Part shown: in pieces, positions 39,553 through 63,237 of the stretch
How the letters are laid out: each line of letters starts with the position of its first letter
How positions within the stretch are numbered: the first letter of the stretch is position 1
NCBI RefSeq assembly: GCF_020177575.1
Contig: NZ_JAHTBK010000001.1
Span: 2,849,875-2,913,874, forward strand
From: Hasllibacter sp. MH4015
GTDB taxonomy: Bacteria > Pseudomonadota > Alphaproteobacteria > Rhodobacterales > Rhodobacteraceae
Direction of reading: 5' to 3'
Length of the DNA: 64,000 nt
Notes under the pieces: model-generated
The model's database searches: none
Seen by the model: the letters and a program-made list of their open reading frames with translations, nothing else
Told to the model about the DNA's origin: nothing
Translations under genes and position numbers: made by a program

Positions 39553-39626
39553 CGCGCGTCCCTCCCTTGCCTATGTGGCGCGCATCATGCTTCGCTCCGC
39601 CGACAAGTCCAAGGGGGCGCCTACAT

Positions 39627-45296: not shown

Positions 45297-46883
45297 CTAT
45301 ATCCCGTGATCTTCGCGGATCATGTCGGCGGCTTTTTCGCCGATCATGATCGTGGGCGCGTTGGTGTTGGAGGAGACAACGTTCGGCATAATGGATGCAT
45401 CGGCGACGCGGAGGTTTTCGATCCCGTTGAAGCGCAGACGCGGCGTGACCACGGCGCTGTCGCCCGGCCCCATGGCGCAGGTGCCCGCGCAATGGTGCGA
45501 GGTCTTGGAATGCTGGCAGATGAAGTGGAAGTAATCGTCGTCGGTTTTGACATCGGGGCCGGGGAGTCGCTCGGCCTTGATGAAGGGTTTCAGCGCGTCT
45601 TGGGACAGGATTTCCTGCGTCAGCTTGAGGCCGCGAATGGACATCTCCCGGTCTTGCGGGTCGGCGCAATAGTTCGGGTCGATCAGCGGGGCCTTACGCG
45701 GATCGGCGGATTGCAGGCGCACGCTGCCGCGCGACCGGGGGCGGAGGTAGCACGAGTTCAGGGTCACACCGCCTTCGGGCATTGCTGCAACCCCCGCCTC
45801 GATCCCCGTGCCGAGGCCTAGGTGGAATTGCAGATCGGGGGAACGGGCGTCGGGGTCGGCGTACCAGAAGCCGCCCGTCTCGAAGAGGGAGGATGCGACG
45901 GGGCCTTTGCGCGTGAACATGTATTGCAGACCGGCGAGCGCGCTCAGGTGCGGCTTGGCGAAGCGGTCATAGGTGTGGGGGCCTGAAACCTCGGCAATGC
46001 AATAGAGGTCGAGATGGTCTTGCAGGTTGCCACCCACTTGAGGTTGGTCGAGCAGAACGTCGATACCAAGCGCGCGAAGGTCGTCGGCGGGACCGATGCC
46101 GCTGAGTTGCAGGAGGCGGGGCGAGCCGATGGCCCCTGAAGACAGAATGACCTCGGTTCCCGCGTGGATTAGAGAGCGGTCGAGCATTTCGACACCAACG
46201 GCCCTGCCCCTGTCTAACAGCATGCGCCGCACTTGCGCGCCGAGTTTCACGGTGAGGTTCGGGCGGCGTTTGTTCGGGTGAAGGAACGCCATCGCGGCGG
46301 AGGACCGGCGGGCGTTCTTCTGGGTCAGCTGGTAATAGGCGGCGCCTTCCTGCACGTCGCCTGTGACGTCTTCGTTGAACGGAATGCCGACCTCTTTAGC
46401 GGCCTCAAAGTAAGCCTCGCAGATCGGAAGGGGGGCGGCGGGTTTTGAGACGCCGAGGGGGCCGTCTTGGCCGTGATATCGGCCCGAGTAAGTGTCGTTG
46501 CCCTCGGATTTTCGGAAGTAGGGGAGCACGTCTTCATAGCTCCACCCCTCGCATCCCTTCTGTCGCCATTCGTCATAATCGAGCGGATGGCCGCGCGTGT
46601 AGATCTGTGCGTTGATGGCCGATCCGCCGCCGATCACTTTCGCCTGAGTGTAGGTGAAGACTTTGTTTTGCATATGCTTTTGGGGCGTCGTGCTCCAACC
46701 CCAAGACGCGATGCCCTTGGTCATCTTCGCAAAGCCCGCGGGCAGGTGGAAGAACGGATGGCGGTCGGAGCCGCCGGCCTCCAACAGGCAGACGGAGACG
46801 TTCGGATTTTCGCTCAGGCGCGAGGCGATCACGGACCCTGCGGACCCGCCGCCGATGATGAGGAAATCGTAGGATTCGGACAT
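45297..46883 (-). CDS. GMC family oxidoreductase (choline dehydrogenase-like)
   Basis: The 528-residue FAD enzyme has the Rossmann FAD motif YDFLIIGGGSAGSVIASRLSE near residues 5-25, the GMC signature KVIGGGSAINAQIYTRGHPLDY near 80-101, SSGAIGSPRLLQLSGIG near 251 and the active-site histidine/asparagine pair in SKTSHHCAGTCAMG near 462 and SNTNAPTIMIGEKAAD near 503. It most resembles choline/alcohol dehydrogenases. The substrate is unknown. It lies between an SDR gene and the DUF993 gene with 3-9 bp gaps. Confidence 0.93.
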   Translation of the reverse strand: MSESYDFLIIGGGSAGSVIASRLSENPNVSVCLLEAGGSDRHPFFHLPAGFAKMTKGIASWGWSTTPQKHMQNKVFTYTQAKVIGGGSAINAQIYTRGHPLDYDEWRQKGCEGWSYEDVLPYFRKSEGNDTYSGRYHGQDGPLGVSKPAAPLPICEAYFEAAKEVGIPFNEDVTGDVQEGAAYYQLTQKNARRSSAAMAFLHPNKRRPNLTVKLGAQVRRMLLDRGRAVGVEMLDRSLIHAGTEVILSSGAIGSPRLLQLSGIGPADDLRALGIDVLLDQPQVGGNLQDHLDLYCIAEVSGPHTYDRFAKPHLSALAGLQYMFTRKGPVASSLFETGGFWYADPDARSPDLQFHLGLGTGIEAGVAAMPEGGVTLNSCYLRPRSRGSVRLQSADPRKAPLIDPNYCADPQDREMSIRGLKLTQEILSQDALKPFIKAERLPGPDVKTDDDYFHFICQHSKTSHHCAGTCAMGPGDSAVVTPRLRFNGIENLRVADASIMPNVVSSNTNAPTIMIGEKAADMIREDHGI

Positions 46884-46892
46884 GGGCGCTTT

Positions 46893-47603
46893 CTACAGGC
46901 GGTGGATCGACAGACCGCCATCGACGGGGATCTGCGCGCCGGTCGCGAAGGCGAAATCGCCGCGCGCAAGGGGGACGATGACTTGGCCGATATCGGCGGG
47001 CTGGCCCCAGCGGGCGGCGGGCACGATCTGCGGGATACGGTCGGTGTAGCTTTCGGCGACGGGCGCGGTCAGGGGCGTTTCGATGATGCCGGGGCGGATG
47101 TCGAACACGCCGATATTCTCGGGCGCGAGGCGGGCGGCGAAGGCCTGGGCCAGCATCGCGGTGGCGGCCTTGGAAGTGCAATACTCGGCACGGTCGGGGC
47201 TCACCATGGTGGCGCTGACGGAGGTGATGAACGTCAGAGAACCGTAGCTGTCGGACGGATCGGCCAGCATCCGGCGGGCAACTTCTTGTGCAAGAAAGAA
47301 CGCGCCGCGCGTGTTCACGGCCATGCAACGGTCGAAGCTTTCGGGGCTCATGTCGAGGAGGTCGCCGCTGTGAAGCGCGCCGACGCCGGCGTTGGAAACG
47401 AAGGTGGTGATGGGGCCTGTTGCGTCGAGAAGTGCAGGGATCGCGTCGAGGTCGCGGACGTCGTGCTGGTGGTAGGTGGCAGGGAACGGCATCGCGGCCT
47501 CGGGTTGTTCGGAGGCCACGGCAACCTCCCACCCCGCCGCGTGGAGCGCCTGCGCGATGCCAAGGCCGATGCCTTGCTGGCCGCCGGTGATGAGGGCTTT
47601 CAT
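46893..47603 (-). CDS. SDR family oxidoreductase
   Basis: This is a 236-residue classical short-chain dehydrogenase. The N-terminus MKALITGGQQGIGLGIAQAL has the TGxxxGIG cofactor loop, then FVSNAGVG near residue 70, SVSATMVS near 130 and the catalytic YCTSKAATAML near 145. The end (PVDGGLSIHRL) is standard. The start overlaps the stop of the upstream GMC gene as ATGA. The operon suggests oxidation or reduction of a keto-sugar intermediate, which is inference. Confidence 0.92.
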   Translation of the reverse strand: MKALITGGQQGIGLGIAQALHAAGWEVAVASEQPEAAMPFPATYHQHDVRDLDAIPALLDATGPITTFVSNAGVGALHSGDLLDMSPESFDRCMAVNTRGAFFLAQEVARRMLADPSDSYGSLTFITSVSATMVSPDRAEYCTSKAATAMLAQAFAARLAPENIGVFDIRPGIIETPLTAPVAESYTDRIPQIVPAARWGQPADIGQVIVPLARGDFAFATGAQIPVDGGLSIHRL

Positions 47604-49063
47604 TGCACCAGTTCCTTTTGTTCTGCTGCTTGGCTGCTTGATGTCTCCTTGAGGTGGTCCGCCTGCCGGAGTGCCAGCGCGGCGATGGTCAGCGACGGGT
47701 TCACGGCGGCGGAAGTGGGCAGGAGCGAGGCGTCGCAGATATAGAGGTTCTCGAGGTCATGCGCCTTACCGATCGGGTCGCAGACCGAGGTTGTCGGATC
47801 GTCCCCAAGACGCGCCGTGCCGCATTGGTGGGAGGGCGTGCGGCGATCAAAGGCCTTGGAGAGGACGATGGGGAAGCCTGCCTTCCTGAGCGTTGTCTTG
47901 AACTTGGCGACCAGGGCGAGGTGCGCATCCCAGTTGGAGCGTTTCCAGTCGAGCACGATGTCATCGCCCCGGATGGTCACGCGGCTGTCGGGGTCGGGAA
48001 AGTCCTCGGACATGGCATAGAAGTCGATGGATCGGTTGGCGATCACGGCCGCAACGGGCTTTGGCAGACCGGTTTGCGCGGCGAGGATGGGGGTGGAGAC
48101 ACGGCCCAGAAGTTGCACGTTACCGAGGCCATCGAGATACCAATCGTTGATCTGGAGCGTCTTCTGGTAGACCGCGCGGTTGCGCCGGTGGCTGAGCGCC
48201 AAGACGGCGCTGGCATTGTGGTTCATGAAATTGCGGCCCACCTGATCTGAGCGGTTGGCGAGGCCATTGGGATGCGCTTCGGTCGCGGAGGTCAGCAGAA
48301 GCGCGGCCGTGTGGACGGCCCCGGCGGCAATGACGATCCGCGGCGCGGTGAACCGACCGGCGGAGGTGAGGAGGCCGGTGACACGGGTGCCATCGGATTC
48401 GATCCGGCGGACAGTGACGCCGGTGCGCAGGGTGATGTTCGGGTCGTCGAGGGCCGCTACGAGGGCCGCGCTTTCGGCATCGAGTTTGCCGCCATTGGTG
48501 TCGGGATGCGCATCCCAAGGGGTCTGGCCGCGGCTGAGCCAACGGTCGAGATCGACGGCAAGCGGAAGGGGCGATGGGGTCAGGCCCGCGCGTTTCAGGC
48601 GTCGGGCAAGGTCGGCTATGTCAGCCTCGTGGGGGATGGGCGGGTGCGGATAGGGGGCGTCGTGGGGCGGCTCCGTCGGGTCGATACTGGCATCGCCACG
48701 CACCTGGAACAGCCCCTCAGCCCGCGTGTAGAAGGGCGCAAGCGTGGCGTGGTCGATGGGCCAGTGCCGCGCGAAATCAGCCTCCCGATAGCGCATCATG
48801 ACCGCGCCGTAGAACTTGGAATTGCCACCGACATAGGCGTAGTTGCCGGGGTTGAACCGGGTGCCATCGGGGGTCAGCCACGTCTCGTCCGGGCGGAAAT
48901 GGCCGCGCTTGAAAATGGCGTCGGGGTCGCGCGCCTCCGGGCTGTCATGCAGAAGCTGGCCGCGCTCAATGATCAGCACGCGCAGGCCCGATCCCGCCAG
49001 CCCTGCGGCCAGCGTCGCGCCCCCCATGCCGGAACCGACGATGATGATATCTGCGTCGCTCAT
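47600..49063 (-). CDS. GMC family oxidoreductase, first gene of the DUF993 operon
   Basis: The 487-residue FAD oxidoreductase starts MSDADIIIVGSGMGGATLAA, with the FAD loop. YVGGNSKFYGAVMMRYREADF near residue 77 replaces the classic GMC loop, and the end carries SHQCGTARLGDDPTTSVCD near 418 and AAVNPSLTIAALALR near 455, the histidine/asparagine active-site pair. This shorter type, with a plain C-terminus, is related to the sugar 3-dehydrogenase and gluconate dehydrogenase large subunits. No small or cytochrome subunit gene is adjacent. The operator at 49,083 lies 20 bp upstream. Confidence 0.92.
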   Translation of the reverse strand: MSDADIIIVGSGMGGATLAAGLAGSGLRVLIIERGQLLHDSPEARDPDAIFKRGHFRPDETWLTPDGTRFNPGNYAYVGGNSKFYGAVMMRYREADFARHWPIDHATLAPFYTRAEGLFQVRGDASIDPTEPPHDAPYPHPPIPHEADIADLARRLKRAGLTPSPLPLAVDLDRWLSRGQTPWDAHPDTNGGKLDAESAALVAALDDPNITLRTGVTVRRIESDGTRVTGLLTSAGRFTAPRIVIAAGAVHTAALLLTSATEAHPNGLANRSDQVGRNFMNHNASAVLALSHRRNRAVYQKTLQINDWYLDGLGNVQLLGRVSTPILAAQTGLPKPVAAVIANRSIDFYAMSEDFPDPDSRVTIRGDDIVLDWKRSNWDAHLALVAKFKTTLRKAGFPIVLSKAFDRRTPSHQCGTARLGDDPTTSVCDPIGKAHDLENLYICDASLLPTSAAVNPSLTIAALALRQADHLKETSSSQAAEQKELVQ

Positions 49064-49082: not shown

Positions 49083-49094
49083 TGGAACGTTCCA
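49083..49094. promoter_or_regulatory. LacI-type operator palindrome before the GMC/DUF993 operon
   Basis: TGGAACGTTCCA is a perfect 12-bp palindrome with the central CG typical of LacI-family operators. It lies 20 bp upstream of the ATG at 49,063, between a possible -35 (TTGGAA) and a possible -10 (TATACG) on the minus strand. That position would let a bound repressor block RNA polymerase. The same core occurs twice before the Gfo/Idh gene. Confidence 0.75.
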
Positions 49095-49142
49095 ATTCCA
49101 AGCGAAAAATCAGCCCGGACACTGCTGCGCCCGGGCCGATGG

Positions 49143-50258
49143 TCAGGCGATACGGTCTTCGGTCTTGGGATCGAACAGAACCGCCTTGTCCATGTTCACC
49201 GCGAATTCAAAGGGTTGGTTCGGGTGGACATCGGCGTCCGCGCGCATTCGTGCGATGCAATCCTTGCCCGAGAGCGTGGTGCTGACGAAGGTGTCGGCGC
49301 CCGCGGGTTCGGTCACGCTGACGGTGTTGGTCAGCATCTGGATGTTGCGCGCGTTGCGGTCGGCCCCTTCGGGGTCTGTGATCGCCTCGGGCCGGATGCC
49401 GAGCATCACCTCCTTGTTGAGGTAGGCGCGATAGGCCTCCGGTGCGCTTTCGATGCGCAGAAGTTGGTCCTGCCCCTCGGCCCCGGTGATCTGGGCGTGG
49501 ATCGCGCCGTTCATCTCCACCAGTTTGGCGGAGAGGACGTTCATCGCCGGGCTGCCCATGAAAGTGGCCACGAACAGGTTGGAGGGGTTGTCGTAGATCT
49601 CCTTCGGCGTGCCGAGCTGCTGGACGTAGCCGTCATACATGACCGCGATGCGGGTGGAGAGAGTCATCGCCTCGATCTGGTCGTGGGTGACGTAGACGAT
49701 GGTGGTGCCGAGCTTCTGGTGCAGCTTCTTGATCTCGGTCCGCATGTCGACGCGCAACTTTGCGTCGAGGTTCGAGAGCGGCTCATCGAAGAGGAACACG
49801 TCGGGGTCGCGGACCAGCGCGCGGCCCATGGCGACGCGCTGACGCTGACCGCCCGAGAGCTGACCAGGTTTGCGATCCAGCAGGTTCTCGATCTGGAGCA
49901 GTTGGGCGACATCGGCCATGGCCCTGTCGCGCTCGGCCTTGGGGGTGCCCTGCATCTCTAGCCCGAAGGTGATGTTCTTGCCCACGGTCATGTTGGGGTA
50001 GAGGGCGTAGGACTGGAACACCATGGCGATGTTGCGCTTGGCGGGGGCGATGTTGTTCACGACCCGGTCCTTGATCGCGATCTCGCCGGAAGAAATCCCC
50101 TCAAGCCCCGCGATCATGTTCAGAAGCGTGGACTTGCCGCAGCCGGACGGGCCGACGAGGACGAGGAACTCCCCCTCCTCCACCTGGATGTCGACCTTAT
50201 GGAGAACCTCCACCGCGCCGTAGGATTTTGTGACGTTGTTGATGTCGAGAAATCCCAT
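49143..50258 (-). CDS. CUT1 sugar ABC transporter ATP-binding protein (UgpC/MalK-type), cassette 1
   Basis: The 371-residue ATPase begins [20 protein letters not shown]. It has Walker [10 protein letters not shown] near residues 38-46, signature [19 protein letters not shown] near 135-153, Walker [15 protein letters not shown], the H-loop [12 protein letters not shown], and the C-terminal MalK-type regulatory barrel (about residues 240-371). It is the last gene of the binding protein-permease-permease-ATPase cassette. The longer frame upstream overlaps the permease gene and is not used. Confidence 0.95.
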
Positions 50259-50263
50259 GGGAC

Positions 50264-51148
50264 TTATCCTTTTACGCTGCCGGCCATCAGACCGCGCACG
50301 AAATAGCGGCCCGCGACGATGTAGACGAGGAGTGTGGGGCCGGCGGCCATGATGGCGCCGGCGAAATGGACGTTGTATTCCCGCACCCCGGTGGAGGAGT
50401 TGACGAGGTTGTTCAAAGCCACCGTCATCGGGGCCGCACCGCCGGAGGCAAAGGACGCGCCGAACAGGAAGTCGTTCCAGATATTGGTGAACTGCCAGAT
50501 GCAACAAACCGCGATGATCGGGCCGGACGACGGCAGCATGATGCGCCAGAAGATCTGGAAGAACCCGGCCCCGTCGATCTGGGCCGCGCGCACAAGCTCC
50601 GTCGGGAAGGCGGCGTAGTAGTTGCGGAAATAGAGCGTGGAGAAGCCGATGCCGTAGACCACGTGAACCAACACCAGGCCGGTCGTGGTGCCCGCGATGT
50701 CGAGAATGCCGAGGATGCGCGCCATCGGGATCAGGACGATCTGGAACGGGATGAAGCAAGAAAAGAGCAGCAGGCCGAAGATCCAGGTCGCGCCCCGGAA
50801 GTGCCACTTGGTCAGGACATATCCGTTCAATGCCCCCAGCACGGTGGAGATGGCCACCGCTGGCACCGCCATGGCGATGGAGTTTATGAAGTAGGGACGC
50901 AGGCCCGTGGGCTCCACCCCGATCTGGGCGGTGGACCAGGCGGAAAGCCACGGCTCGATCGTCCATTCGCGGGGCAGCGCGATCATGTTGCCCTCGGTGA
51001 TTTCGGACAGGGGTTTCAGCGAATTCACCAGCATGATCCCGAAGGGCAGCAGGTAGAACAGCGCGAACAGCAGCAGCACGAGGTAGATGAACATCCGCGT
51101 GACGTTGGAAGAGCGCATCGCGTTATCGGAGGAGGCAATGGCCATCAC
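50264..51148 (-). CDS. CUT1 sugar ABC transporter permease (MalG-type), cassette 1
   Basis: The 294-residue inner-membrane protein has six helices and the EAA loop [26 protein letters not shown] near residues 195-220. A N-terminal helix ([22 protein letters not shown]) is followed by a moderate periplasmic loop, normal for MalG. Its start overlaps the upstream permease stop by 4 nt, and it ends 5 bp before the ATPase start. Confidence 0.94.
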
Positions 51149-52053
51149 TTCTTCTCCCGCAATTCGGCGTAAAGGTAGGGCACCATGATCGCGGCGATGG
51201 TCATCAGCATGATGACGGCGGACGCCGCGCCGATGCCCATCTGATCGCGCGTGAAGGTGTAGGAATACATGAAGGTCGCGGGCATCGCCGTGGCATTGCC
51301 GGGCCCGCCGCCGGTCAGCGCGATCACAAGGTCATAGGACTTGATCGCGAGGTGGCTGAGGATGACGAAGGCGCTCAGGAAGGCCGGGCGCAGCTGCGGC
51401 AGGATGATCCGGCGATACATCTGGAAGTTCGACGCTCCGTCCATCTGGGCCGCTTTCAGGATCTCGTTGTCGATCCCGCGCAGGCCCGCCAGGAACATCG
51501 CCATCACGAAGCCCGACGATTGCCAGACCGCGGCGATGACGATGGTATAGACCGCCATGTCGCGATCCTTGATCCAGTCGAATTCGAAATTCTCGAACCC
51601 CCAGAGATGCATGGAGTGTTCGATCCCGATGCCGGGGTCGAGGAACCATTTCCACGCCGTGCCCGTCACGATGAAGCTGAGCGCCATGGGATAGAGGAAG
51701 ATCGGGCGCAGGATGCCTTCGCCGCGGATCTTCTGATCGAGGAAGATCGCCAATGTCAGCCCGATGATTGTGGAGATCACGATATAGAGCGACGCGAAGA
51801 CGAAGAGGTTGGAGACCGCGATGTCCCATTCTCGGATGCGGAACAGGCGGTCGTAATTCTGCCAGCCCACCAGATCGAAGCTCGGCAACATGCGGCTTCC
51901 GGTGAAGCTGAGATAGACAGTGAAGGCGATGAAGCCGTAGACGAAGATGACCATGATCGCGAAAGACGGCGCGAGGACGATCTTCGGCAGCCATGTCTGT
52001 AAACGCGTGCGGAAATCCGCACCGCTGTCCAGCATCGGATCGGTGGCGGCCAT
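51145..52053 (-). CDS. CUT1 sugar ABC transporter permease (MalF/UgpA-type), cassette 1
   Basis: The 302-residue permease has about six helices, beginning PKIVLAPSFAIMVIFVYGFI near residue 29. The EAA loop is LKAAQMDGASNFQMYRRIILPQLRPA near residues 199-224. It is 87 bp downstream of the binding-protein gene, a gap that holds a strong hairpin. It pairs with the MalG-type subunit encoded next. Confidence 0.94.
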   Translation of the reverse strand: MAATDPMLDSGADFRTRLQTWLPKIVLAPSFAIMVIFVYGFIAFTVYLSFTGSRMLPSFDLVGWQNYDRLFRIREWDIAVSNLFVFASLYIVISTIIGLTLAIFLDQKIRGEGILRPIFLYPMALSFIVTGTAWKWFLDPGIGIEHSMHLWGFENFEFDWIKDRDMAVYTIVIAAVWQSSGFVMAMFLAGLRGIDNEILKAAQMDGASNFQMYRRIILPQLRPAFLSAFVILSHLAIKSYDLVIALTGGGPGNATAMPATFMYSYTFTRDQMGIGAASAVIMLMTIAAIMVPYLYAELREKK

Positions 52054-52110
52054 GGGGCCTCTCCTTCACTCGGGGTGGATTTGGCGCGGGCGGACCCGCA
52101 AGGGTGGACC

Positions 52111-52126
52111 GGCCCCGATCGGGGCC
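52111..52126. repeat. Intercistronic hairpin between binding-protein and permease genes
   Basis: GGCCCCGATCGGGGCC is a perfect 16-bp palindrome just after the binding-protein stop, able to form a 6-bp GC stem with a GATC loop. No T tract follows. Such hairpins after binding-protein genes commonly stabilise the upstream mRNA and lower downstream expression, giving excess binding protein. That role here is inferred. Confidence 0.6.
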
Positions 52127-52140
52127 GATCCGGGAGGACG

Positions 52141-53391
52141 TTACTGGGCCAGTTCGACCGCGGTGACCATTTCGGCCGCGGCGGTTTCGGCATCGTACTC
52201 ACCGTTGAAGTGCGCGGTGATCACATCATACATCGCGTTCTGCACGGACGGCGGGTTCGCGTGGCCATGGGCCATGGAACCGAACAGGGTGCCGTTTTCA
52301 CCGGCAGCCGCCAGATCGGCCATTGCTGCCTGACCGCATGCGTCGAAGGCAGACGGGTCGATGTCGGTCCGCGCGGGGGCGGAGCCTTTGACCACGTTGA
52401 ACGCGATCTGGAATTCCGGGCTCATCACGGCGGATGCCATGGCAAGCTGCGATTCCTGATCGGATTCATCTTCGACGTTGAACATCGCGAACTGGTCGGA
52501 GTTGAAGGTCACGGTGCCCTCGGAGCCCGGGACGCGGAAGCACTGGAATTCCTCGCCAGCCGTCAGGCCCGCATTGACGAATTCGCCCTTCGCCCAGTCA
52601 CCCATGATCTGGAACAGCGCCTCGCCGTTGATGACCATCGCCGTGGCGAGGTTCCAGTCACGACCGGAGAAGTTGTCATCCACGAAACCGCGCAGGGTTT
52701 CCATGCGGTTGAACGCTTCGACCATTTCCGCGCCACCCAGCGCCTCCGGGTCGAGGTCGACGAAGGCCGCTTGGTAGAATTCCGGGCCACCGGCGCCCAT
52801 GGCGACCGAGTCGAAGATCGTGGCGTCCTGCCAGGCCTGACCACCGTGGGCGAGCGGCGTGTAGCCAGCTTCCTGAGCGGTTTCCATCGCGGCGACGAAA
52901 TCCTCCCAGGTCTCGGGCTGTTCGATGCCAAGCTCTTCCATCAGGGCGGTGTTAGCCCAGACCCAGTTGGTGGAGTGAACGTTCACGGGTGCGGCGACCC
53001 AGTTGCCCTCATACGTGGAGAACCGCTGAAGCGCCTCGGGCACGACCTCGTTCCAGTTCTGCTCTTCGGCGAGGGCGTTCAGATCGGCCAATGCGCCTTC
53101 CTCGGCCCAGTTCTGGATCGCGAAACCGAGCATCTGCACGGCGGTCGGCGGGTCGCCTGCGGTGACGCGGGCACGCAGGACGGTCATGGCGTCGGAGCCA
53201 CCGCCACCGGCCACGGGCATGTCGGTCCAGCCGACACCGCCCCCGGCGAGGTCTTCGCGCAGGACGTTCAGGGCAGCCGCTTCACCGCCGGACGTCCACC
53301 AGTGCAGAACCTCGACTTCCTGCGCCACAGCGGCGGAGGTGCCAAGGGCCAGAACGGCCGCACCGGTGTAGAATTTTCTCATCATGGTCAT
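52141..53391 (-). CDS. Sugar ABC transporter substrate-binding protein, cassette 1 (glucose/mannose type)
   Basis: This is a 416-residue secreted protein with signal peptide [20 protein letters not shown]. The mature start [20 protein letters not shown], then [18 protein letters not shown], and [19 protein letters not shown] near residue 270 resemble the GtsA/GltB glucose-mannose binding proteins, as does the order SBP-permease-permease-ATPase. GGGAGG precedes the ATG (53,391) by 8 nt. Sugar specificity is inferred from resemblance. A LacI gene is divergent, with an operator in the probable promoter. Confidence 0.9.
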
Positions 53392-53436
53392 TTGATTTCC
53401 TCCCATTTGACCGATCCCCTTTTCGGGGCTGCAGAA

Positions 53437-53467
53437 ATTAAAACGTTATAAATCGGGTTGAAGTCAA
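53437..53467 (-). promoter_or_regulatory. Probable promoter of ABC cassette 1 with LacI-type operator
   Basis: On the minus strand TTGACT (53,462-53,467) and TTTAAT (53,437-53,442) are 19 bp apart, about 45 bp before the binding-protein ATG. Between them lies AAAACGTTAT (53,440-53,449), a near-palindrome with a central CG. A repressor bound there would cover the promoter. Confidence 0.5.
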
Positions 53468-53567
53468 CCAGAAATTGTCCTTTTCTTGCGCAACGATCGC
53501 TGCGGAACAGCATGTTTCATTGTGTATTTTCCGCAGCGCAGCATGTGCTGCGTCGAAAACAGCGCTA

Positions 53568-53582
53568 TTGAAACGTTTGAAA
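53568..53582. promoter_or_regulatory. LacI-type operator upstream of the divergent lacI gene
   Basis: TTGAAACGTTTGAA contains the palindrome AAACGTTT, the core bound by GalR-like members of the LacI family. It lies about 50 bp before the lacI ATG at 53,630 and 130 bp from the related site at 53,440. Autoregulation or looping between the two sites is plausible. Confidence 0.6.
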
Positions 53583-53629
53583 TCTCGCGCAATATGGGGC
53601 GAGATGCAACCTGAAGGCGACCTTGCGCG

Positions 53630-54670
53630 ATGACTGGCGAACCCGCGGACACCAAAACCGCGCCAAGTGGCGAGAAACCGACCTTGCGCAGCCTGGCGGA
53701 GGCGACCGGGTTCTCCGTGGCGACGATCAGCCGGGCGCTTGCCAACGATCCGCGAATCGCGGCCAAGACGCGCGCCAAGGTGTCGGAGGCAGCGAAGGCG
53801 GCCGGCTATGTCCCGGACCGGGCCGCGCGGCGCTTGCGGACGGGGCGCACCCAGGTCGTGACGCTTTTGCTGAATACCGAGCACGAATTCCTGGGCTTCA
53901 CCCACGAGTTCCTTTCGGGCATGACGGACGCTTTGCGCGGCACCGGGTATTCCGTCAATGTCGTGCCCGATCACGTGGGCGAGGATCGCCTTGCCCCGGT
54001 CCGCAACATCTTGCGCAATCATCTGGCCGACGGGATCCTGTTCACCCGGACGGAGGCGTTCGATCCCCGCGTTCGCCTGATGATGGAGGCCGATTTCCCC
54101 TTCGTCAGCCACGGCCGGACGGAATTCACCGCGCCGCATCCTTACGTCGATTTCGACAACGAGGCGTTTGCGCGGGCCGCCGTGGCGCGACTTGTTGAGA
54201 AGGGGCGCACACGCCTGTCCCTCATCTTGCCGGAGGATCGGTTCACCTTCACCCAGCACCTGCGCTACGGCTTCATGAGCGCCGCGCGGGAGGCCGGTGT
54301 GGACCACGAAATCGTGGCGGGCGTGACGCTTGACAGTTCCGCCGCCGAGATCGCGGAGGCGATGCGTCGAAGCCGCGACAGCAGCGCACCGCCCGATGGC
54401 TATGTCTGCGTGGGGGAGGTGACGGCCCTTGTCACCCTGTCCGCTCTGGCCGATAGCGGCGCGGTTCTGGGCCAGGACGCGGACATTTTCGCCAAGCGCG
54501 CCTCGCCCATCTTCGACAACATCCGGCCGCGCATCGACACGGTCTTCGAGGATCTGCGGGAGACCGGGCGCAAGATGGCCGAGATGCTTCTGCGCCGGAT
54601 GCAAGGCGAGCCGCCCGAGACCCTCACCCACATGTTGCTGCCGGATTTCGAGCGGATGCATCATGTTTGA
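53630..54670 (+). CDS. LacI-family transcriptional regulator, divergent from ABC cassette 1
   Basis: This 346-residue regulator has its helix-turn-helix at LRSLAEATGFSVATISRALA (residues 20-39) and hinge helix AARRLRTGRTQVVT. The sensor domain begins VTLLLNTEHEFLGFTHEFL. The specificity pair V-A is the same as in E. coli GalR, whose operators have an AAACGTTT core. That fits the sites at 53,440 and 53,570. It probably controls the adjacent transporter in response to sugar. Its 3' end overlaps the convergent aldehyde dehydrogenase gene by 10 bp. Confidence 0.93.
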   Translation: MTGEPADTKTAPSGEKPTLRSLAEATGFSVATISRALANDPRIAAKTRAKVSEAAKAAGYVPDRAARRLRTGRTQVVTLLLNTEHEFLGFTHEFLSGMTDALRGTGYSVNVVPDHVGEDRLAPVRNILRNHLADGILFTRTEAFDPRVRLMMEADFPFVSHGRTEFTAPHPYVDFDNEAFARAAVARLVEKGRTRLSLILPEDRFTFTQHLRYGFMSAAREAGVDHEIVAGVTLDSSAAEIAEAMRRSRDSSAPPDGYVCVGEVTALVTLSALADSGAVLGQDADIFAKRASPIFDNIRPRIDTVFEDLRETGRKMAEMLLRRMQGEPPETLTHMLLPDFERMHHV

Positions 54671-56184
54671 GCCACCCAGGGCTGGCGCGTGTCGCCGATG
54701 CGCATCTGGACGGTCTTGACCTCCAGAAATTCATCGAGTCCGTAGCGGCCCAATTCGCGCCCCTGCCCGCTTTCCTTGACGCCGCCGAAGGGCATTTCGG
54801 GAAAGCCGTCCATCCATGTGTTGGTCCAGATCGTGCCCGCCTGCGCGCGCCGCGCGAAGGTCAGGCAGGTGGACATGTCGCGCGACCACACCCCGGCGCT
54901 GAGGCCATAGGAAGCATCGTTGGTCAGGTGCAGCGCCTCGTCCATTGTACGGAAGGTCAGGACCGACAGGACCGGGCCGAAAACCTCATCACGCGCGATG
55001 GCCATGTCCGGGCGCAGGTTCGTGACGACCGTAGGCTGGTAGAATTGCGCGCCAAGGCCGTCGACGGAGAGCGTGTCGCCGCCCATTGCCACCTTGGCCC
55101 CGTCCGCAACGGCGTCCTGTACGTAGCCATCAATCTTGGACAGATGTTCGGGCGAGATGATCGCGCCCACTTGGGTTTTCGGGTCCAACGGATCGCCGAA
55201 GGGCACTTTGCGCGAGAGCGCCACAACCTTCTCGGTCAACGTGTCCGCCACGTCTTCATGCACGATAATGCGGCTGCCGGAATTGCAGCATTCGCCGGCG
55301 TTGAAATAGACGCCGAAGGTGATGGCATCGGCAGCCTGATCCAGATCGGCATCGGGGAAGACGACCTGCGGGTTCTTGCCCCCAAGCTCCAGGCTGACCT
55401 TCTTGAGCGTCCCACTGGCCGCTGCCGAAATTCGTTTTCCGACGCCAGTAGAGCCGGTGAAAGACACCATGTCGACCCGAGGATCGGTGGAGAGGATCTC
55501 GCCCACGGGATCGCCGAAGCCCAAGACAATATTGGCGACGCCCGCAGGCAGGCCTGCATCGATCAGCAACTCGCCCAGAATGCAGGTTGTCGACGGTGTC
55601 AGTTCCGACGGTTTGACCACCGCAGTGCAGCCCGCGGCCAGCGCGAAGGGCAGCTTCTGGCTGACGATCAGGAACGGGAAATTCCACGGGCAGATGATGG
55701 AGACGACGCCGATGGGTTCCTTGAGGACGACGCCGAGCATATCCGGCCCGAGACTGTTGTGGCTGTCGCCGTGGATCATCCGCGCGAGGCTGGCGGCGTA
55801 GCGCCAGAGGTCGGCAGCACCCGCAATTTCCGCCTTGGCCTGAGTGATCGGCTTGCCGGATTCGAGTGTTTCCAGAAGGGCGATGCGGTCCAGGTCCCGT
55901 TCGATCAGGTCGGCGACCTTCAGCAAGATCGCGGCGCGCGAGGCACCGCTGGAAAACGCCCAATCGCCTGTATCGAATGCCCTGCGGGCGGCGGCGATTG
56001 CGGCCTCCACCTCTGGCTTGGCGCCCTTGGCTGCGGAGCTGACCAGCGTGCCGTGCGCGGGGGAGTGACGATCCGATGTCGCGCCGTTCGCGCTGTCCAC
56101 CCACGCGCCGTCAATCAGATGCCGGGCCTTGAACGCGGCGGGGATAGTCGCGCCACTGGCGGGGATAATCGTCAGGTCATTCAT
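54661..56184 (-). CDS. NAD(P)-dependent aldehyde dehydrogenase
   Basis: The 507-residue enzyme has the NAD-binding SIICPWNFPFLIVSQKLPFAL near residues 162-182 and VKPSELTPSTTCI. The general base glutamate is in KKVSLELGGKNPQVVF near 267 and the nucleophilic cysteine in NAGECCNSGSR near 298-308. The closing PFGGVKESGQGRELGRYGLDEF is standard. It resembles betaine- or succinate-semialdehyde dehydrogenases, but the substrate is not assignable. It is the last gene of the Gfo/Idh-CoA-transferase-hydratase operon, 3 bp after the hydratase. Confidence 0.93.
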   Translation of the reverse strand: MNDLTIIPASGATIPAAFKARHLIDGAWVDSANGATSDRHSPAHGTLVSSAAKGAKPEVEAAIAAARRAFDTGDWAFSSGASRAAILLKVADLIERDLDRIALLETLESGKPITQAKAEIAGAADLWRYAASLARMIHGDSHNSLGPDMLGVVLKEPIGVVSIICPWNFPFLIVSQKLPFALAAGCTAVVKPSELTPSTTCILGELLIDAGLPAGVANIVLGFGDPVGEILSTDPRVDMVSFTGSTGVGKRISAAASGTLKKVSLELGGKNPQVVFPDADLDQAADAITFGVYFNAGECCNSGSRIIVHEDVADTLTEKVVALSRKVPFGDPLDPKTQVGAIISPEHLSKIDGYVQDAVADGAKVAMGGDTLSVDGLGAQFYQPTVVTNLRPDMAIARDEVFGPVLSVLTFRTMDEALHLTNDASYGLSAGVWSRDMSTCLTFARRAQAGTIWTNTWMDGFPEMPFGGVKESGQGRELGRYGLDEFLEVKTVQMRIGDTRQPWVAQT

Positions 56185-56187
56185 CGC

Positions 56188-56955
56188 TCAATCCCCGGAA
56201 AAATCTGGTTTGCGTTTTTCTTTGAAGGCGCTCACGCCCTCTGCCCGGTCGCCGGTCGCCCCGATCATGCCGCCGCCCAACGCCTCGATCATTGCCGACC
56301 GGTCCTCCCCAACGCTTGCGTGGATCTGGTATTTTGCAACCTCGCGGGCGCGGGGGGAGGCTGGCGTGGCGTGCTTGGCCATGGCAAACGCGGTCGCCAG
56401 CGGCGTGTCGGAGACGTCCGCCACGAAGCCCATGGCCAGCGCGCGGTCGGCAGTGAGACGGCGACCGAACAGCGCCATTTCCTTGACCACCGGTTCCGGC
56501 AAAAGGCGCAGGAGCCGCGTGTTACCGCCCCATCCCGGAACGATGCCGACCTGCGCTTCGGGCAGGGCCAGGGTGGCATCGGGGGCCATGATGCGGACAT
56601 CCGCACATGCGGCGAGTTCGAGGCCGCCGCCAAAGGCATGGGCGTGGATCACCGCGATGGTCGGTATCGAGAGGCGGGCGAAGCGATCGTAAATCCGGTG
56701 GCCTTCGCGGACCCAGTTGCGCGCGAAATCCGTGGGCGTCAGGTCGCCCCATCCCGTGATATCCGCCCCGGCGCAAAAGGCACGCTCCCCCGCGCCAGTC
56801 AAGATCACGGCACGGATATTCGGGCTGCGCTCAAGTGTGGCGCAAGCCTGTTCGAGCTGCGCCAACATCTCGACCGTCAGCGCGTTCAGCTTCGTCGGAT
56901 TGTCGAGCGTGATGCGGGCGGTGGAGCCGTCGATATTCAGGTGAACGGCACTCAT
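56188..56955 (-). CDS. Enoyl-CoA hydratase/isomerase family protein
   Basis: This 255-residue crotonase-fold enzyme has the oxyanion-hole segments GERAFCAGADITGWGD near residues 55-70 and HAFGGGLELAACADVRI near 103-119, and LALPEAQVGIVPGWGGNTRL near 126-145. Both glutamates used by enoyl-CoA hydratases are present (GLELA and LPEAQ), so hydration is plausible. Its start overlaps the CoA-transferase stop by 4 nt. Confidence 0.92.
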   Translation of the reverse strand: MSAVHLNIDGSTARITLDNPTKLNALTVEMLAQLEQACATLERSPNIRAVILTGAGERAFCAGADITGWGDLTPTDFARNWVREGHRIYDRFARLSIPTIAVIHAHAFGGGLELAACADVRIMAPDATLALPEAQVGIVPGWGGNTRLLRLLPEPVVKEMALFGRRLTADRALAMGFVADVSDTPLATAFAMAKHATPASPRAREVAKYQIHASVGEDRSAMIEALGGGMIGATGDRAEGVSAFKEKRKPDFSGD

Positions 56956-58523
56956 ATCTGAAGGCCCATCTTCGCGTCCCGGAGCAGGGAGAGTGGCATG
57001 GTTGCAGCGTCCTCTGCAATGGACACGCGGCCTTCGCTCGCCTTCACGATGTCGCGCTGCGGGTCGATGCCCGGCATGATTTCATGGGCGACGAGGCCAT
57101 TGTCGCCAAGGCGCATAACACAGCGCTCGGTGACGTAGAGGACGTCCGCCATGCGGGCTTTCGCGCGGCGGCCCGCGAAGGTGACGTGCTCCACCGCGTC
57201 GACCATCTTGGTGAACTTGCCGGGTTTGGTGACGTGCAGGCCTTGGTTGGTCAGCTCCAGCTGCGCGCCGGCCTCGAAATATCCGCTGAAGACGATCTTT
57301 TTCGCATGCGCCGTGATGTCGACGAAGCCGCCACACCCCGCCGTCAGGTAGGGCTTTTTGCCGAGCTTGGAGACGTTCACGTTGCCGTCCACGTCGACCT
57401 CCATGAAGGACAGGAACGACACGTCGAACCCTCCGCCCTGGAAATAGGCAAACTGATTGGGGGACGGCACGAAAGCGTCGGCGTTCGACGCACAGCCAAA
57501 GGCGAAGCCGGTGAGCGGCATCCCCCCAACGGCGCCTTGTTCGATGGCCCAGGTGACGGCATCGTGGGCGCCTTCTTCCAAAAGAATGCGCGGCACCATG
57601 GCGGAAATACCGAAGCCCAGATTGGCAGTCTGGCCCCGAGATAGCTCCATCGCGGCGCGACGGGCGATAATCTTTTCGACACCGTGGTCCGCGAACGTGA
57701 AAGACGACCACGGCCGCATGACTTCGCCACTGATCGCGGGGTCGTAGGGGGTTTCGGTGGTCTGCTTCTGGTCGGGGGCAATGACGATCAGGTCCACGAG
57801 ATGCCCCGGGACATGAACGTCGTGGGGGCGAAGGGAGCCCGCGGCAGTTACGCGTTTGACCTGCGCGATCACCAGCCCGCCATAGTTGCGGGTGGCGATG
57901 GCCTGGTCGAGACCGCCCAGATACGCGCCCTCATGCTCGTAGGTCAGGTTGCCGTTCTCATCGGCGGTCGTCGCGCGGATGATGGCGACGTCGGGGACAA
58001 TATTGGGGAAGTGGAGCCATGTGTCGCCCGCGAATTCGGTGCGGTGGACGATGGGGGCCTTGGCTGCGCTGTCGTTCATCGCGCAGCCTTCGCGGATCGG
58101 GTCAACGAAGGTCTCCAGCCCCACTTGCGTCAGCACACCCGGGCGGCGTGCCGCGACGTCGCGGTGCATGTCGAAGAGGATGCCGGAGGGGACGTTATAC
58201 GCCGCCACGCGGTCGTCGACGACCATCTGCCAGATCGCGGGCATGGGCAGGGAGGACGGGCCAGAGGGGTAGGAGCCGCCGATGATCCGCGCCAGCAAGC
58301 CGTCCTTGGCGATGTGGTCCACGCCTTTCACGCCATACATGTCGCCTGCCGCGATGGGGTGGATTGTGGTGAGGTTTCGCGGTGCGCCCTCCGCATCGAA
58401 GCGCTCACCCAGCGCCTGCAAGACGACATCCGGGCAGCCGAGCGCGGAGGAGCTGGAGACGGTCACAACCGCATCGTCCTTGATGCGGGCGACCGCGTCG
58501 GACGCAGAGACGATCTTCGACAT
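56952..58523 (-). CDS. Acyl-CoA:acetate/3-ketoacid CoA-transferase (fused alpha-beta, Pct-like)
   Basis: This 523-residue protein fuses both halves of a family I CoA-transferase. The N-terminal half runs from MSKIVSASDAVARIKDDAVV, with GGSYPSGPSSLPMPAIWQMV near residue 91 and NYGGLVIAQVKRVT near 224. The C-terminal half has the catalytic glutamate in VTWAIEQGAVGGMPLTGFAFG near 322-342, then PYLTAGCGGFVDITAHAKKI. The family moves CoA between carboxylic acids. Substrate unknown. It starts 1 bp after the Gfo/Idh stop. Confidence 0.9.
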   Translation of the reverse strand: MSKIVSASDAVARIKDDAVVTVSSSSALGCPDVVLQALGERFDAEGAPRNLTTIHPIAAGDMYGVKGVDHIAKDGLLARIIGGSYPSGPSSLPMPAIWQMVVDDRVAAYNVPSGILFDMHRDVAARRPGVLTQVGLETFVDPIREGCAMNDSAAKAPIVHRTEFAGDTWLHFPNIVPDVAIIRATTADENGNLTYEHEGAYLGGLDQAIATRNYGGLVIAQVKRVTAAGSLRPHDVHVPGHLVDLIVIAPDQKQTTETPYDPAISGEVMRPWSSFTFADHGVEKIIARRAAMELSRGQTANLGFGISAMVPRILLEEGAHDAVTWAIEQGAVGGMPLTGFAFGCASNADAFVPSPNQFAYFQGGGFDVSFLSFMEVDVDGNVNVSKLGKKPYLTAGCGGFVDITAHAKKIVFSGYFEAGAQLELTNQGLHVTKPGKFTKMVDAVEHVTFAGRRAKARMADVLYVTERCVMRLGDNGLVAHEIMPGIDPQRDIVKASEGRVSIAEDAATMPLSLLRDAKMGLQI

Positions 58524-58524
58524 C

Positions 58525-59517
58525 TCAGATCCCGCCATAATCGATGGTCACGCGCTGCCCGGTCTCAGCCGCTTCGCTGACGGCTGCGGCGACGGCCAGG
58601 GATTTCACCCCGTCCACACCATCGGCGGCGGGGCGGCCTTCGCTTGCGCAGGCTTTGGCGAAGAGGCTTACGGCACGGTCATAGAGGCCGTGGGTGGAAT
58701 AGCTGAGCGCTTCCTCCCCCGCGTTGCTGCGGAGCATCACGGTGCCGGTGGGCGCCTGGGTCATCACACCGCGCGCGACGATGGAGCCCTTGGTGCCGTG
58801 GACCTCAATCCCCGTTCCGGCATGGGCATGGGTGAAGCTCTCATGGGTCTGGACCATGGCGCCCGAGGGCATGGACCAGATGGACATCGCGCTGTCCTCC
58901 ACCCCCTGCCCCATCCCGCTGGCCGATTTCATCGCGACGACATCGACGGGGTCCTCGCCGAGATGAAAGCGGACGGTATCGGCATCGTGGACCGTGATGT
59001 CTGGGATCACGCCGCCGCCCGCGCCCGGATTGTCGATGCGCCAGCCTTGCAGGTGCGGTGGCAGATGGACGGCATGGAAGACGCGGACCGACAGGATATC
59101 GCCCAGACGTCCCGCGGTGATCGCATCGCGGATGGCAAGGTGGCTGCCTGCGTTGCGCAGGTGGTGGTTGGTGGCAAAGGTCACGCCTTTGGACGCGGCG
59201 GCCTGCACCATTGATACGGCGTCGGCCACGTTCATCGCCAGCGGCTTTTCGCACAGCACATGCTTGCCCGCCGCGATGGCGGCCATCGCCTGCGGCAGGT
59301 GCTTTTCGTTGGTGGTGGAGATGTAGACGGCGTCGACACCCTCCATGGCCGTGTCCAGTTCGGTGACACCGGCGTCGATGCCGTGGTCTGCGGCGTAGCT
59401 TGCGGCGCGGTCAGGGTTGGACGACAGGACAGTCGCGATATGCCCTCCCGAGGCGCGGATCGCCCCGATCATGTGCTCGGACGCGATGGTGCTGGCCCCG
59501 ATCAATCCCCAACGCAT
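58525..59517 (-). CDS. Gfo/Idh/MocA family oxidoreductase
   Basis: The 330-residue NAD(P) enzyme begins MRWGLIGASTIASEHMIGAI with the Rossmann loop. It has the family EKP motif in GKHVLCEKPLAMN near residues 89-101, and a C-terminal alpha/beta domain with GGGVIPDITVHDADTVRF near 165-182, where the D and H residues act in catalysis. Members oxidise or reduce sugars and cyclitols. The frame runs upstream through the operators to 59,586, but ATG 59,517 with GGCGGAG before it is the start. First gene of its operon. Confidence 0.92.
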   Translation of the reverse strand: MRWGLIGASTIASEHMIGAIRASGGHIATVLSSNPDRAASYAADHGIDAGVTELDTAMEGVDAVYISTTNEKHLPQAMAAIAAGKHVLCEKPLAMNVADAVSMVQAAASKGVTFATNHHLRNAGSHLAIRDAITAGRLGDILSVRVFHAVHLPPHLQGWRIDNPGAGGGVIPDITVHDADTVRFHLGEDPVDVVAMKSASGMGQGVEDSAMSIWSMPSGAMVQTHESFTHAHAGTGIEVHGTKGSIVARGVMTQAPTGTVMLRSNAGEEALSYSTHGLYDRAVSLFAKACASEGRPAADGVDGVKSLAVAAAVSEAAETGQRVTIDYGGI

Positions 59518-59535
59518 GTGCAGTCTCCGCCGAAT

Positions 59536-59547
59536 TGGAACGTTCCT
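59536..59547. promoter_or_regulatory. LacI-type operator, proximal site before Gfo/Idh operon
   Basis: TGGAACGTTCCT carries the palindrome GGAACGTTCC (59,537-59,546), identical in its core to the site at 49,084. It lies about 20 bp upstream of the Gfo/Idh ATG. Confidence 0.72.
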
Positions 59548-59561
59548 ATTGGTGTCCGTTT

Positions 59562-59573
59562 TGGAACGTTCCA
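59562..59573. promoter_or_regulatory. LacI-type operator, distal site before Gfo/Idh operon
   Basis: TGGAACGTTCCA is a perfect 12-bp palindrome identical to the site at 49,083. Its centre is 26 bp from the proximal site. Confidence 0.75.
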
Positions 59574-59601: not shown

Positions 59602-60675
<1,074 letters not shown>

Positions 60676-60718
60676 GGAAGTTTTCCTTATGCGCTATCGC
60701 TTCGCTACTTGAGCGCGC

Positions 60719-62155
60719 TCATTTCATGCCGGTGTTGGCGATACCGGTGGTGATGTACTTTTGCAGGAAGACGAAGACGAGCGTCGTGGGGATCAGCGAC
60801 ACGACCGTCATCGCAAGGCGGTAATGTTCCTGGCTGATATGCTCACCCCGGAATTCGAGGAGGCAGAGTTGGATCGTGTAAGCCTCGGTGTTCGTGGCGA
60901 TGGCGACCATGGGGATGATCAGGTCGTTCCAGCGCCAGATCACGCTGAGGATGCCAAGTGCCGCGATCGCGGGAAGGGCGAGGGGCAGGACGATGCGCCA
61001 GTAGACCTTCCATTCAGACGCGGAGTCCATGCGCGCGGCCTCCAGCAACTCGTCGGGGATGGTCAGCATGTACTGGCGCAGCAGGAAGACGCCCGCCGGT
61101 GTGGCCGCGCCGGGAATGATGACGCCCCAGATGGAGCCGGAAAGGCCCGTGGCGTTGATTGCCTTGAACACCCCCACCAGCGTGATCGTGGCAGGCACCA
61201 TGAGGGTGGCGAGGATCATCACGAGGAAGAAGGTCTGCCCCCGGAACGTGTATTTCGAAAGCGCGAAGGCGGCCATGGAATTGATGAGCAGCGTCATCAG
61301 CGTGGCGATGACGGTTACAAGGACCGAATTGGTGATACAGGTCGCGAAATCGACGTTCACGCCATAGGCGGTGCCGGTCAGCGGCTCGATATAATTGCCC
61401 CAATCGGGCGCGATGTTGCGTTCGGTCACAACCGACTCACGCGGAAGGCGCACGACCCCTTCGATGGAGCCATCGACGGCCCGGCCCGGCAAAAACTCGG
61501 AGGTCGCGTTGGGGTTGGGGACGGCCCATTGCAGGACGTCGCCCGTATCCGGATGCGGGGCGGTCACAAGGGCCTGCGTGACGATGCGGTTCGGCTGGTA
61601 TGGCTCCACGCCCAGATATTCGAGGATCAGGCGTTCCTGTTCGGGCGTCAGGGTGGCCACGACGGCGTCCAGATCGAATGCCTCCCGCGCGGACGGGGTC
61701 AGCGCGCCGTAGCGGTTGAGCCAGACCGGCAGCCCCTCCGCCGCGATGACGGCCCGGGCAGCGTTGGACACCTGCCCTAGGTGGGACCGGAGCGCGTAGA
61801 GCGTGTTGCCCTCGTAATCCGCAAGGAACGCCCCCACATCGCGATCGGCCTGTTCCTGCGCGGAGAGATCGGACCAGTTCAGCACCCAATCCGGCAGGTC
61901 GGCGATCACGAATATCTCTCGCCCGTCCGGCCCGTTAACGGTGGCGCGCGCCACACGCTCGAAATCGCCGGGCAGCAGCGACAGATCCTGGCTTTCGATC
62001 TGAAACTGGGTTTTGACGGAGTTCAGGCCGAGCCATAAGACCGGCACGAGGATGATCAGGAATCCGAGCAGCAGATAAGCGTAGGAGAGCCAGTCCGTTA
62101 CGGTCAGCCGCCCCCGTCCCTGCGTCCGGGTGAAGAAATCCCAGACCCCGCTCAT
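60719..62155 (-). CDS. CUT1 sugar ABC transporter permease with large periplasmic insertion, cassette 2
   Basis: At 478 residues this MalG-type permease is far longer than the usual 280-300. The first helix lies at about 26-45. The remaining five helices begin near 272 (CITNSVLVTVIATLMTLL), and the EAA loop is LEAARMDSASEWKVYWRIVLPLALPA near 371-396. The intervening 220 residues are hydrophilic (QIESQDLSLLPGDFERVARA onward) and would be periplasmic, perhaps contacting the binding protein. The start at 62,155 overlaps the upstream permease stop by 4 nt. Confidence 0.9.
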   Translation of the reverse strand: MSGVWDFFTRTQGRGRLTVTDWLSYAYLLLGFLIILVPVLWLGLNSVKTQFQIESQDLSLLPGDFERVARATVNGPDGREIFVIADLPDWVLNWSDLSAQEQADRDVGAFLADYEGNTLYALRSHLGQVSNAARAVIAAEGLPVWLNRYGALTPSAREAFDLDAVVATLTPEQERLILEYLGVEPYQPNRIVTQALVTAPHPDTGDVLQWAVPNPNATSEFLPGRAVDGSIEGVVRLPRESVVTERNIAPDWGNYIEPLTGTAYGVNVDFATCITNSVLVTVIATLMTLLINSMAAFALSKYTFRGQTFFLVMILATLMVPATITLVGVFKAINATGLSGSIWGVIIPGAATPAGVFLLRQYMLTIPDELLEAARMDSASEWKVYWRIVLPLALPAIAALGILSVIWRWNDLIIPMVAIATNTEAYTIQLCLLEFRGEHISQEHYRLAMTVVSLIPTTLVFVFLQKYITTGIANTGMK

Positions 62156-63213: not shown

Positions 63214-63237
63214 GCGCCCGGCCCCGCCGCCCGGTCC

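Follow-up and report, generated by a model that had tools for sequence, protein, structure and literature searches.

LacI-family local regulons, as portrayed in the parts of Ravcheev et al. (2014, PMC4052901) consulted here, combine even palindromes with a central CG, sites near the start codon, autoregulation and tandem sites whose distances peak at 13, 22 and 32 bp and are read as cooperative dimers. Such palindromes, site positions and tandem sites recur, and autoregulation is predicted, in a catabolic gene cluster of Hasllibacter sp. MH4015 (Rhodobacteraceae), which we analysed in a window of 64,000 nucleotides (contig NZ_JAHTBK010000001.1, positions 2,849,875 to 2,913,874; coordinates below are those of the window), whereas its regulator, operator word and pathway are not named in those parts of the study. 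Within this window, the palindrome GGAACGTTCC (consensus TGGAACGTTCCA) is very likely the operator through which LacI1, a LacI-family regulator encoded on the minus strand at 43126–44133, would control two units of enzyme genes, its own gene included. By gene order LacI1 lies within the cluster, so that the regulator gene is linked to its target operon as in local regulons.

The palindrome in window and genome

An exact search of the window returned GGAACGTTCC at 49084–49093, 59537–59546 and 59563–59572, the three places given in a preliminary description, which by eye had noticed no other; dinucleotide shuffles of the window contained 0.14 copies on average and none of 100 attained three. The consensus 12-mer TGGAACGTTCCA is exact in two of the three copies, and the one at 59536–59547 has a terminal T. 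We designate as O1 (59562–59573, TGGAACGTTCCA) and O2 (59536–59547) the distal and proximal members of a doublet, 26 bp apart from centre to centre, before the gene of a Gfo/Idh/MocA oxidoreductase (58525–59517, minus strand), and as O3 (49083–49094, TGGAACGTTCCA) the single site before the first GMC oxidoreductase gene (GMC1, 47600–49063, minus strand); each is exact in 12 of the 12 other genomes of the genus. For the Gfo/Idh gene, the ATG at 59517 is a more likely start than the longest-frame one, 59586, because orthologues align from there. With this start, O2 ends 19 bp before the Gfo/Idh start codon and O3 20 bp before that of GMC1, right upstream of the first genes as had been noted, where a bound protein would block initiation given the presumed promoter positions.

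The genome scan proposed earlier (3,713,265 bases, two contigs) found GGAACGTTCC at four places, three of them at these promoters, against three matches of the reversed-pattern control, so that one stray copy is at chance level. This fourth copy (C1:1315611) lies within an open frame of at least 517 amino acids, about 43 bases past its first ATG, and was rejected as a regulon target for its position in a coding frame. Allowing two mismatches, the 12-mer matched 139 genomic places and its reversed control 70, so that a copy is informative only if exact or nearly so, and a wider regulon built from all two-mismatch matches was dropped.

LacI1 carries an N-terminal LacI helix–turn–helix (PF00356, 60.7 bits against a cut-off of 27) and a C-terminal sensor domain, Peripla_BP_3 (PF13377, 81.1 against 26.5 bits). 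It falls under the cut-offs of all NCBIfam LacI orthologue groups (RbsR, GntR, MalI and others), the best score being 176.5 bits versus the 382 required for RbsR (NF047341).

Conservation of the site and co-occurrence with LacI1

All 38 testable cluster heads have the site, at up to one mismatch, in front of them (39 genomes, the head in G118 being a run of N; G and L numbers denote genomes and loci of our samples). A scan of named genomes through the family I coenzyme A (CoA)-transferase of the cluster covered at least 80 loci of Rhodobacterales and Rhizobiales, some from genomes common to the first sample, and among the matches listed, which define the scope of all counts from named loci below, it found the site at this level within 300 bp of 77 of the 79 testable heads and exact in 40 of the 79, L242 not being testable. 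Random 300-bp windows of the named loci contained it in 65 of 4570 cases (1.4%). Of all 1024 ten-base palindromes, GGAACGTTCC ranks first at heads and is followed by its own variants GGATCGATCC (38) and GGACCGGTCC (12). The first bases of head sites, in the heads listed, lie at −148 to −20 (about −55 and −29 in the genus, −77/−51 in G202), and a central CG is found in all 51 compiled head sites, chosen at up to one mismatch (two in G098, G182).

Homologous clusters unlinked to LacI1 served as a control set: 20 genomes with a CoA-transferase at 57–63% identity and relatives of the hydratase, the DUF993 protein, the short-chain dehydrogenase (SDR) and the second GMC oxidoreductase (GMC2) mostly nearby. 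Nineteen of the 20 lack LacI1, and in G077 the control cluster is a second cluster. None of the 20 stretches upstream of the CoA-transferase, which is not necessarily the operon head in these clusters, has the site at up to one mismatch, and in the 298,663 bases of control loci exact copies are absent and one-mismatch copies number 11.

LacI1 orthologues occur in 31 of 198 family genomes: that of the window, 29 that share at least 52% identity along most of the length, and a partial one in G191. The exact doublet (spacer 8–30) is present in 15 of the 198, against one for the backward control, and 14 of these 15 encode LacI1. Relaxing the doublet pattern gave 27 of 292 order-level genomes, all 27 with LacI1, and of the 16 among these 27 that were new to the analysis, 14 have doublet and LacI1 on one contig. 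The backward control of the relaxed doublet (CCTWGCAAGG ... CCTTGCWAGG) matched eight times in G201, ten times in G198 and in no other listed genome; these matches probably represent a repeat. Conversely, LacI1 was found in 67 of the 69 genomes reached via the CoA-transferase (69 of the 80 loci). Its recognition-helix letters, SKSTVSLV, are present in 41 of 42 and, in the named set, 58 of 60 sequences (one of the 60 unreadable), a near-invariance that leaves little to test in helix–operator covariation. An L-to-N change in this motif occurs in only two of the sequences read, G152, with a single one-mismatch site, and L220; its pairing with weaker sites is suggestive only.

What the analysis shows is the site itself, its rarity, conservation, co-occurrence and gene order. 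The rarity of the site, its conservation at heads, its co-occurrence with LacI1 and its absence before unlinked clusters point to the LacI protein at 43,126–44,133 as its reader, the candidate originally named. The autoregulated circuit suggested with it is probable as well, because LacI1 sits inside the operator-headed O3 unit and because, in Mameliella sediminis (L189, 9910–19861), a separate exact site lies 80 bp before the LacI1 gene. The regulon of L189 appears rewired, with exact sites before the CoA-transferase gene, a TRAP-type DctP gene and LacI1.

A second LacI-family regulator, LacI2 (53630–54670, plus strand), could in principle read the palindrome, since it lies closer than LacI1 to both O1–O2 and O3 and none of the 13 genus genomes lacks it. 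Its distribution is nevertheless difficult to reconcile with that role: 25 of the 31 LacI1 genomes of the family sample have no LacI2 (E ≤ 1e-90), yet carry the site wherever the head is covered, and of the 16 family genomes (of 198) with LacI2 at this threshold, 6 also encode LacI1, whereas the 10 without it, some with LacI2 only 45–50% identical, have no exact doublet. Moreover, the LacI2 intergenic region contains different CG-centred palindromes, the candidate LacI2 boxes TTCAAACGTTTCAA (53568–53581) and TTATAACGTTTTAA (53438–53451), both of which are found in 9 of the 12 other genus genomes and at least one in 11 of 12; 41 LacI2/transporter regions were examined, several being without a palindrome by that measure. 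LacI2 was rejected as operator reader on co-occurrence and its own palindromes, and we regard it as very unlikely. The intervening transporter (transporter A) is probably under its control.

Highly improbable, too, is a reading of the site by a global LacI-family regulator or another LacI paralogue. The genome holds at least ten LacI-type matches, and GapR, according to the parts of PMC4052901 consulted, acts globally in Rhodobacteraceae and has a palindrome of 20 bp; against this stand the single further exact genomic copy, in coding text, and a site that tracks the LacI1 cluster and is missing before the 20 homologous ones. That a common 10-mer merely happens to sit at promoters, by chance or as a coding by-product, finds some encouragement in the three genome-wide matches of the backward control and in the GGAACGTTCC copies of one genome (G067, below), but is refuted by the shuffles and by head conservation and must be deemed next to impossible.

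Several observations weigh against LacI1 as reader of a conserved paired operator. Eighteen of 110 distinct heads, among the matches listed, have no pair, and the heads of L220 and L227 have two-mismatch sites only. Three genomes with the cluster, G195, G229 and G274, yielded no LacI1; G195 is the fifteenth genome with the exact doublet, and its contig ends before the expected LacI1 position. No sigma-70-like promoter was found at either O1–O2 or O3. The two genome samples overlap and their sequences are related, so that the counts are not independent events. Finally, G067 (Puniceibacterium sediminis, many contigs) contains 33 exact copies of GGAACGTTCC versus one of the backward pattern, apparently within unrelated coding text and, in 15 sampled copies, without common flanks; GGAACGTTCC is thus not a specific marker in every genome. 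This word bias of G067 is without explanation.

Paired operators and the split cluster

Operator pairs occur in 92 of the 110 distinct heads, with centre distances of 13 (1 head), 19–26 (77) and 30–34 bp (14) and none at 27–29. Within the genus the distance is 24–26 bp, including the 26 of the window, which counts against strict phasing. In the 92 paired heads, variant half-sites fall on outer arms 61 times versus 14 on inner arms, a difference whose nominal p of 4e-8 is overstated because the sequences are related, and 13 heads carry the mirror pair GGATCGTTCC ... GGAACGATCC.

To place the window in context, stretches around 30 LacI1 orthologues were compared and the window proteins mapped on them. 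The usual order is double operator, (Gfo/Idh), CoA-transferase, hydratase, aldehyde dehydrogenase, transporter A, GMC1, (SDR), GMC2, (DUF993), LacI1, (kinase), though some clusters have lost genes and a few are arranged differently; no transporter A lies in between in G007, G067, G010 and G098. Given this contiguous order, the two operons of the window are parts of one cluster. The preliminary description had treated them as two separated operons, and the split does exist in the window; relatives usually have one contiguous cluster, and comparison shows a single long operon headed by the double operator as the putative ancestral form. That description had also overlooked what lies between the two halves in the genus, namely LacI2 and the four-gene ABC transporter A (49143–53406 in the window).

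All 12 other genus genomes (members are named Roseicyclus where named records match) combine the exact doublet before Gfo/Idh and the exact single site before GMC1 with LacI2. Outside the genus, none of the 24 family genomes with GMC1 covered has a site at up to one mismatch in the 150 bp upstream. Among the named loci, 14 of 72 have a GMC1 site at this level: three of the genus, seven of a sister group (L166–L171, L177), L176 and L215 of Roseibium, and also L184 and L222, where the flanking letters do not look like an operator. In all seven sister-group loci, the head and GMC1 sites share one variant, GGAACGATCC in either orientation, the pattern to be expected of a single reader protein. On this sequence comparison, the division of the cluster into two parts, each with its operator, is real but derived, in the genus and its sister group and perhaps in some Roseibium.

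Between transporter A and O3 lies an intrinsic-terminator-like hairpin with a T run (49109–49140, minus strand, 14-pair stem); the region 49095–49145 folds at −26.9 kcal/mol (z −3.87), values obtained in the window alone, and similar hairpins arise in shuffles too, at a mean of 0.4 sites. A model of control can be proposed in which LacI1 binding, repression, induction, cooperativity and promoter position are inferred steps. In the absence of inducer, LacI1 dimers would occupy O1–O2 before Gfo/Idh and O3 before GMC1 and, being near the start codons, would block transcription of both units, until an inducer derived from the substrate released LacI1 from the operators. As LacI1 is encoded in the O3 unit, it would limit its own synthesis. 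In the genus, LacI2 and the transporter promoter would lie inside the cluster and the terminator would end the transporter transcript; O3 would give the downstream part its own LacI1-controlled start, restarting transcription at 49084, behind the terminator. The locus would then be a plausible example of an operon that was split and brought back under joint control by a new operator.

Gene content, candidate pathway and known systems

On the minus strand, transporter B, O1–O2 and the Gfo/Idh gene are followed by the CoA-transferase (YdiF/FadX-like, 56952–58538), an enoyl-CoA hydratase/isomerase family protein (56188–56955) and an aldehyde dehydrogenase (54661–56184), then by plus-strand LacI2, which is divergent from transporter A. 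The latter (53.4–49.1 kb) consists of a solute-binding protein (SBP_bac_1, 52141–53406), two permeases (51145–52053 and 50264–51148) and a UgpC/MalK-like ATPase (49143–50258). Beyond O3 follow GMC1, the SDR (46893–47603), choline-dehydrogenase-like GMC2 (45297–46883), the DUF993 protein (44130–45293), LacI1 and a DUF4147/MOFRL protein (41900–43216), whose true start is uncertain and which overlaps LacI1; all genes from transporter A onwards are on the minus strand. This gene order agrees with the one first described, except that the ‘kinase’ label needs qualifying: the DUF4147/MOFRL protein is of the glycerate 2-kinase kind and scores under the equivalog cut-offs.

Transporter B (59602–63960, minus strand) ends 28 bp before O1, no terminator-like site was found there, and its transcript may enter the Gfo/Idh unit by read-through; its ATPase gene is upstream of the doublet in 10 of the 12 other genus genomes, with L005 113–1591 listed alongside. 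At the opposite end, 38728–40541 adjoins the cluster with a ribokinase-like gene and a fumarylacetoacetate-hydrolase-fold protein similar, under cut-offs, to 2,4-didehydro-3-deoxy-L-rhamnonate hydrolase. A second, different Gfo/Idh gene with upstream sites occurs in G055, G086, G084, G025, G082 and G077 (Pfam-confirmed for G055 only). Listed by locus, a second Gfo/Idh gene with LacI1-type sites of its own is found at L058, L063, L060, L042, L051 and L081, of which L058, L063, L060 and L081 have a main-cluster head without the first Gfo/Idh. L141 (G057, 543955–554550) is a different related cluster without operator, in which a GMC2 relative (72% identity) and an ABC transporter lie between two LacI genes that are 36% identical to LacI1.

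The two gene groups very probably encode one self-regulated pathway, as had been proposed with about ten enzymes; the enzymes number nine (Gfo/Idh, CoA-transferase, hydratase, aldehyde dehydrogenase, two GMC, SDR, DUF993 and kinase), accompanied by a sugar-type ABC transporter. From these functions we infer that a sugar, polyol or sugar acid would be oxidised, converted into an activated CoA thioester and then split, and that one of the products would enter as glycerate. Further genes appear in L151, an unlinked homologous cluster: those of an acyl-CoA dehydrogenase, a zinc alcohol dehydrogenase and two aldo/keto reductases, together with a permease of the ribose type. The DUF993 protein has one solved relative, 4dnh, which is uncharacterised. 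Its own model (predicted local distance difference test score, pLDDT, 82.2) alternates strands and helices, as in a predicted alpha/beta-barrel, and places in a strand the residue K228, invariant in 12 of 12 sequences, where it would suit a Schiff-base aldolase. SMc04132 may be the locus tag of 4dnh, and the literature consulted in part for it offered an expression table and nothing on function. Literature searches on DUF993 and on the enzyme combinations of the cluster indicated no substrate and returned no paper on these combinations.

Joining these strands, we tentatively picture an undescribed pathway for a carbohydrate acid whose dedicated repressor, LacI1, requires a double operator, a composite that we consider possible but rather doubtful as a whole. 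In this picture, the oxidised substrate would become a CoA thioester (CoA-transferase, enoyl-CoA hydratase and, in L151, acyl-CoA dehydrogenase) to be split by DUF993 as a new class of Schiff-base aldolase, the inner half-sites would be fixed anchors while the outer arms tune strength, and an operator would have been added when a second LacI gene split the operon. The locus yields a sharply testable regulator–operator pair for a catabolic cluster recurring in Rhodobacterales and Rhizobiales, and since the operator is searchable, it connects enzymes without an assigned role, most of all DUF993, with one pathway.

The oxidative deoxyribose/deoxyribonate pathway reportedly shares CoA chemistry and a glycerate kinase. 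Its likeness to the present cluster in sugar oxidation and cleavage (PMC6365646, in the parts consulted) serves as a lead only, and it differs in that no DUF849-type cleavage enzyme is seen in the window cluster, which has DUF993 instead. A literature search for the operator word led to PMC9953190 and PMC3377646, which in the parts consulted concern sites of actinobacterial regulators. Of these, CebR2 of Streptomyces scabiei (PMC9953190) is likewise LacI-type and belongs to a sugar-transporter cluster, and its predicted consensus TGGGAACGTTCCCA contains the GGAACGTTCC core; it differs in phylum, genes and outer letters (TGGG versus TTGG/ATGG at LacI1 sites), so that the resemblance is one of words only. 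As regards architecture, the RafR and ScrR regulogs also have doubled operators as a rule, at spacings of 21–22 bp only in the parts of PMC4052901 consulted, whereas LacI1 pairs are spaced 19–26 or 30–34 bp (24–26 in the genus) and have degenerate half-sites mostly on outer arms, the inner half-sites being the less variable. Collectively, these comparisons indicate, as far as sequence can, a LacI regulon of an ordinary, well-known kind.

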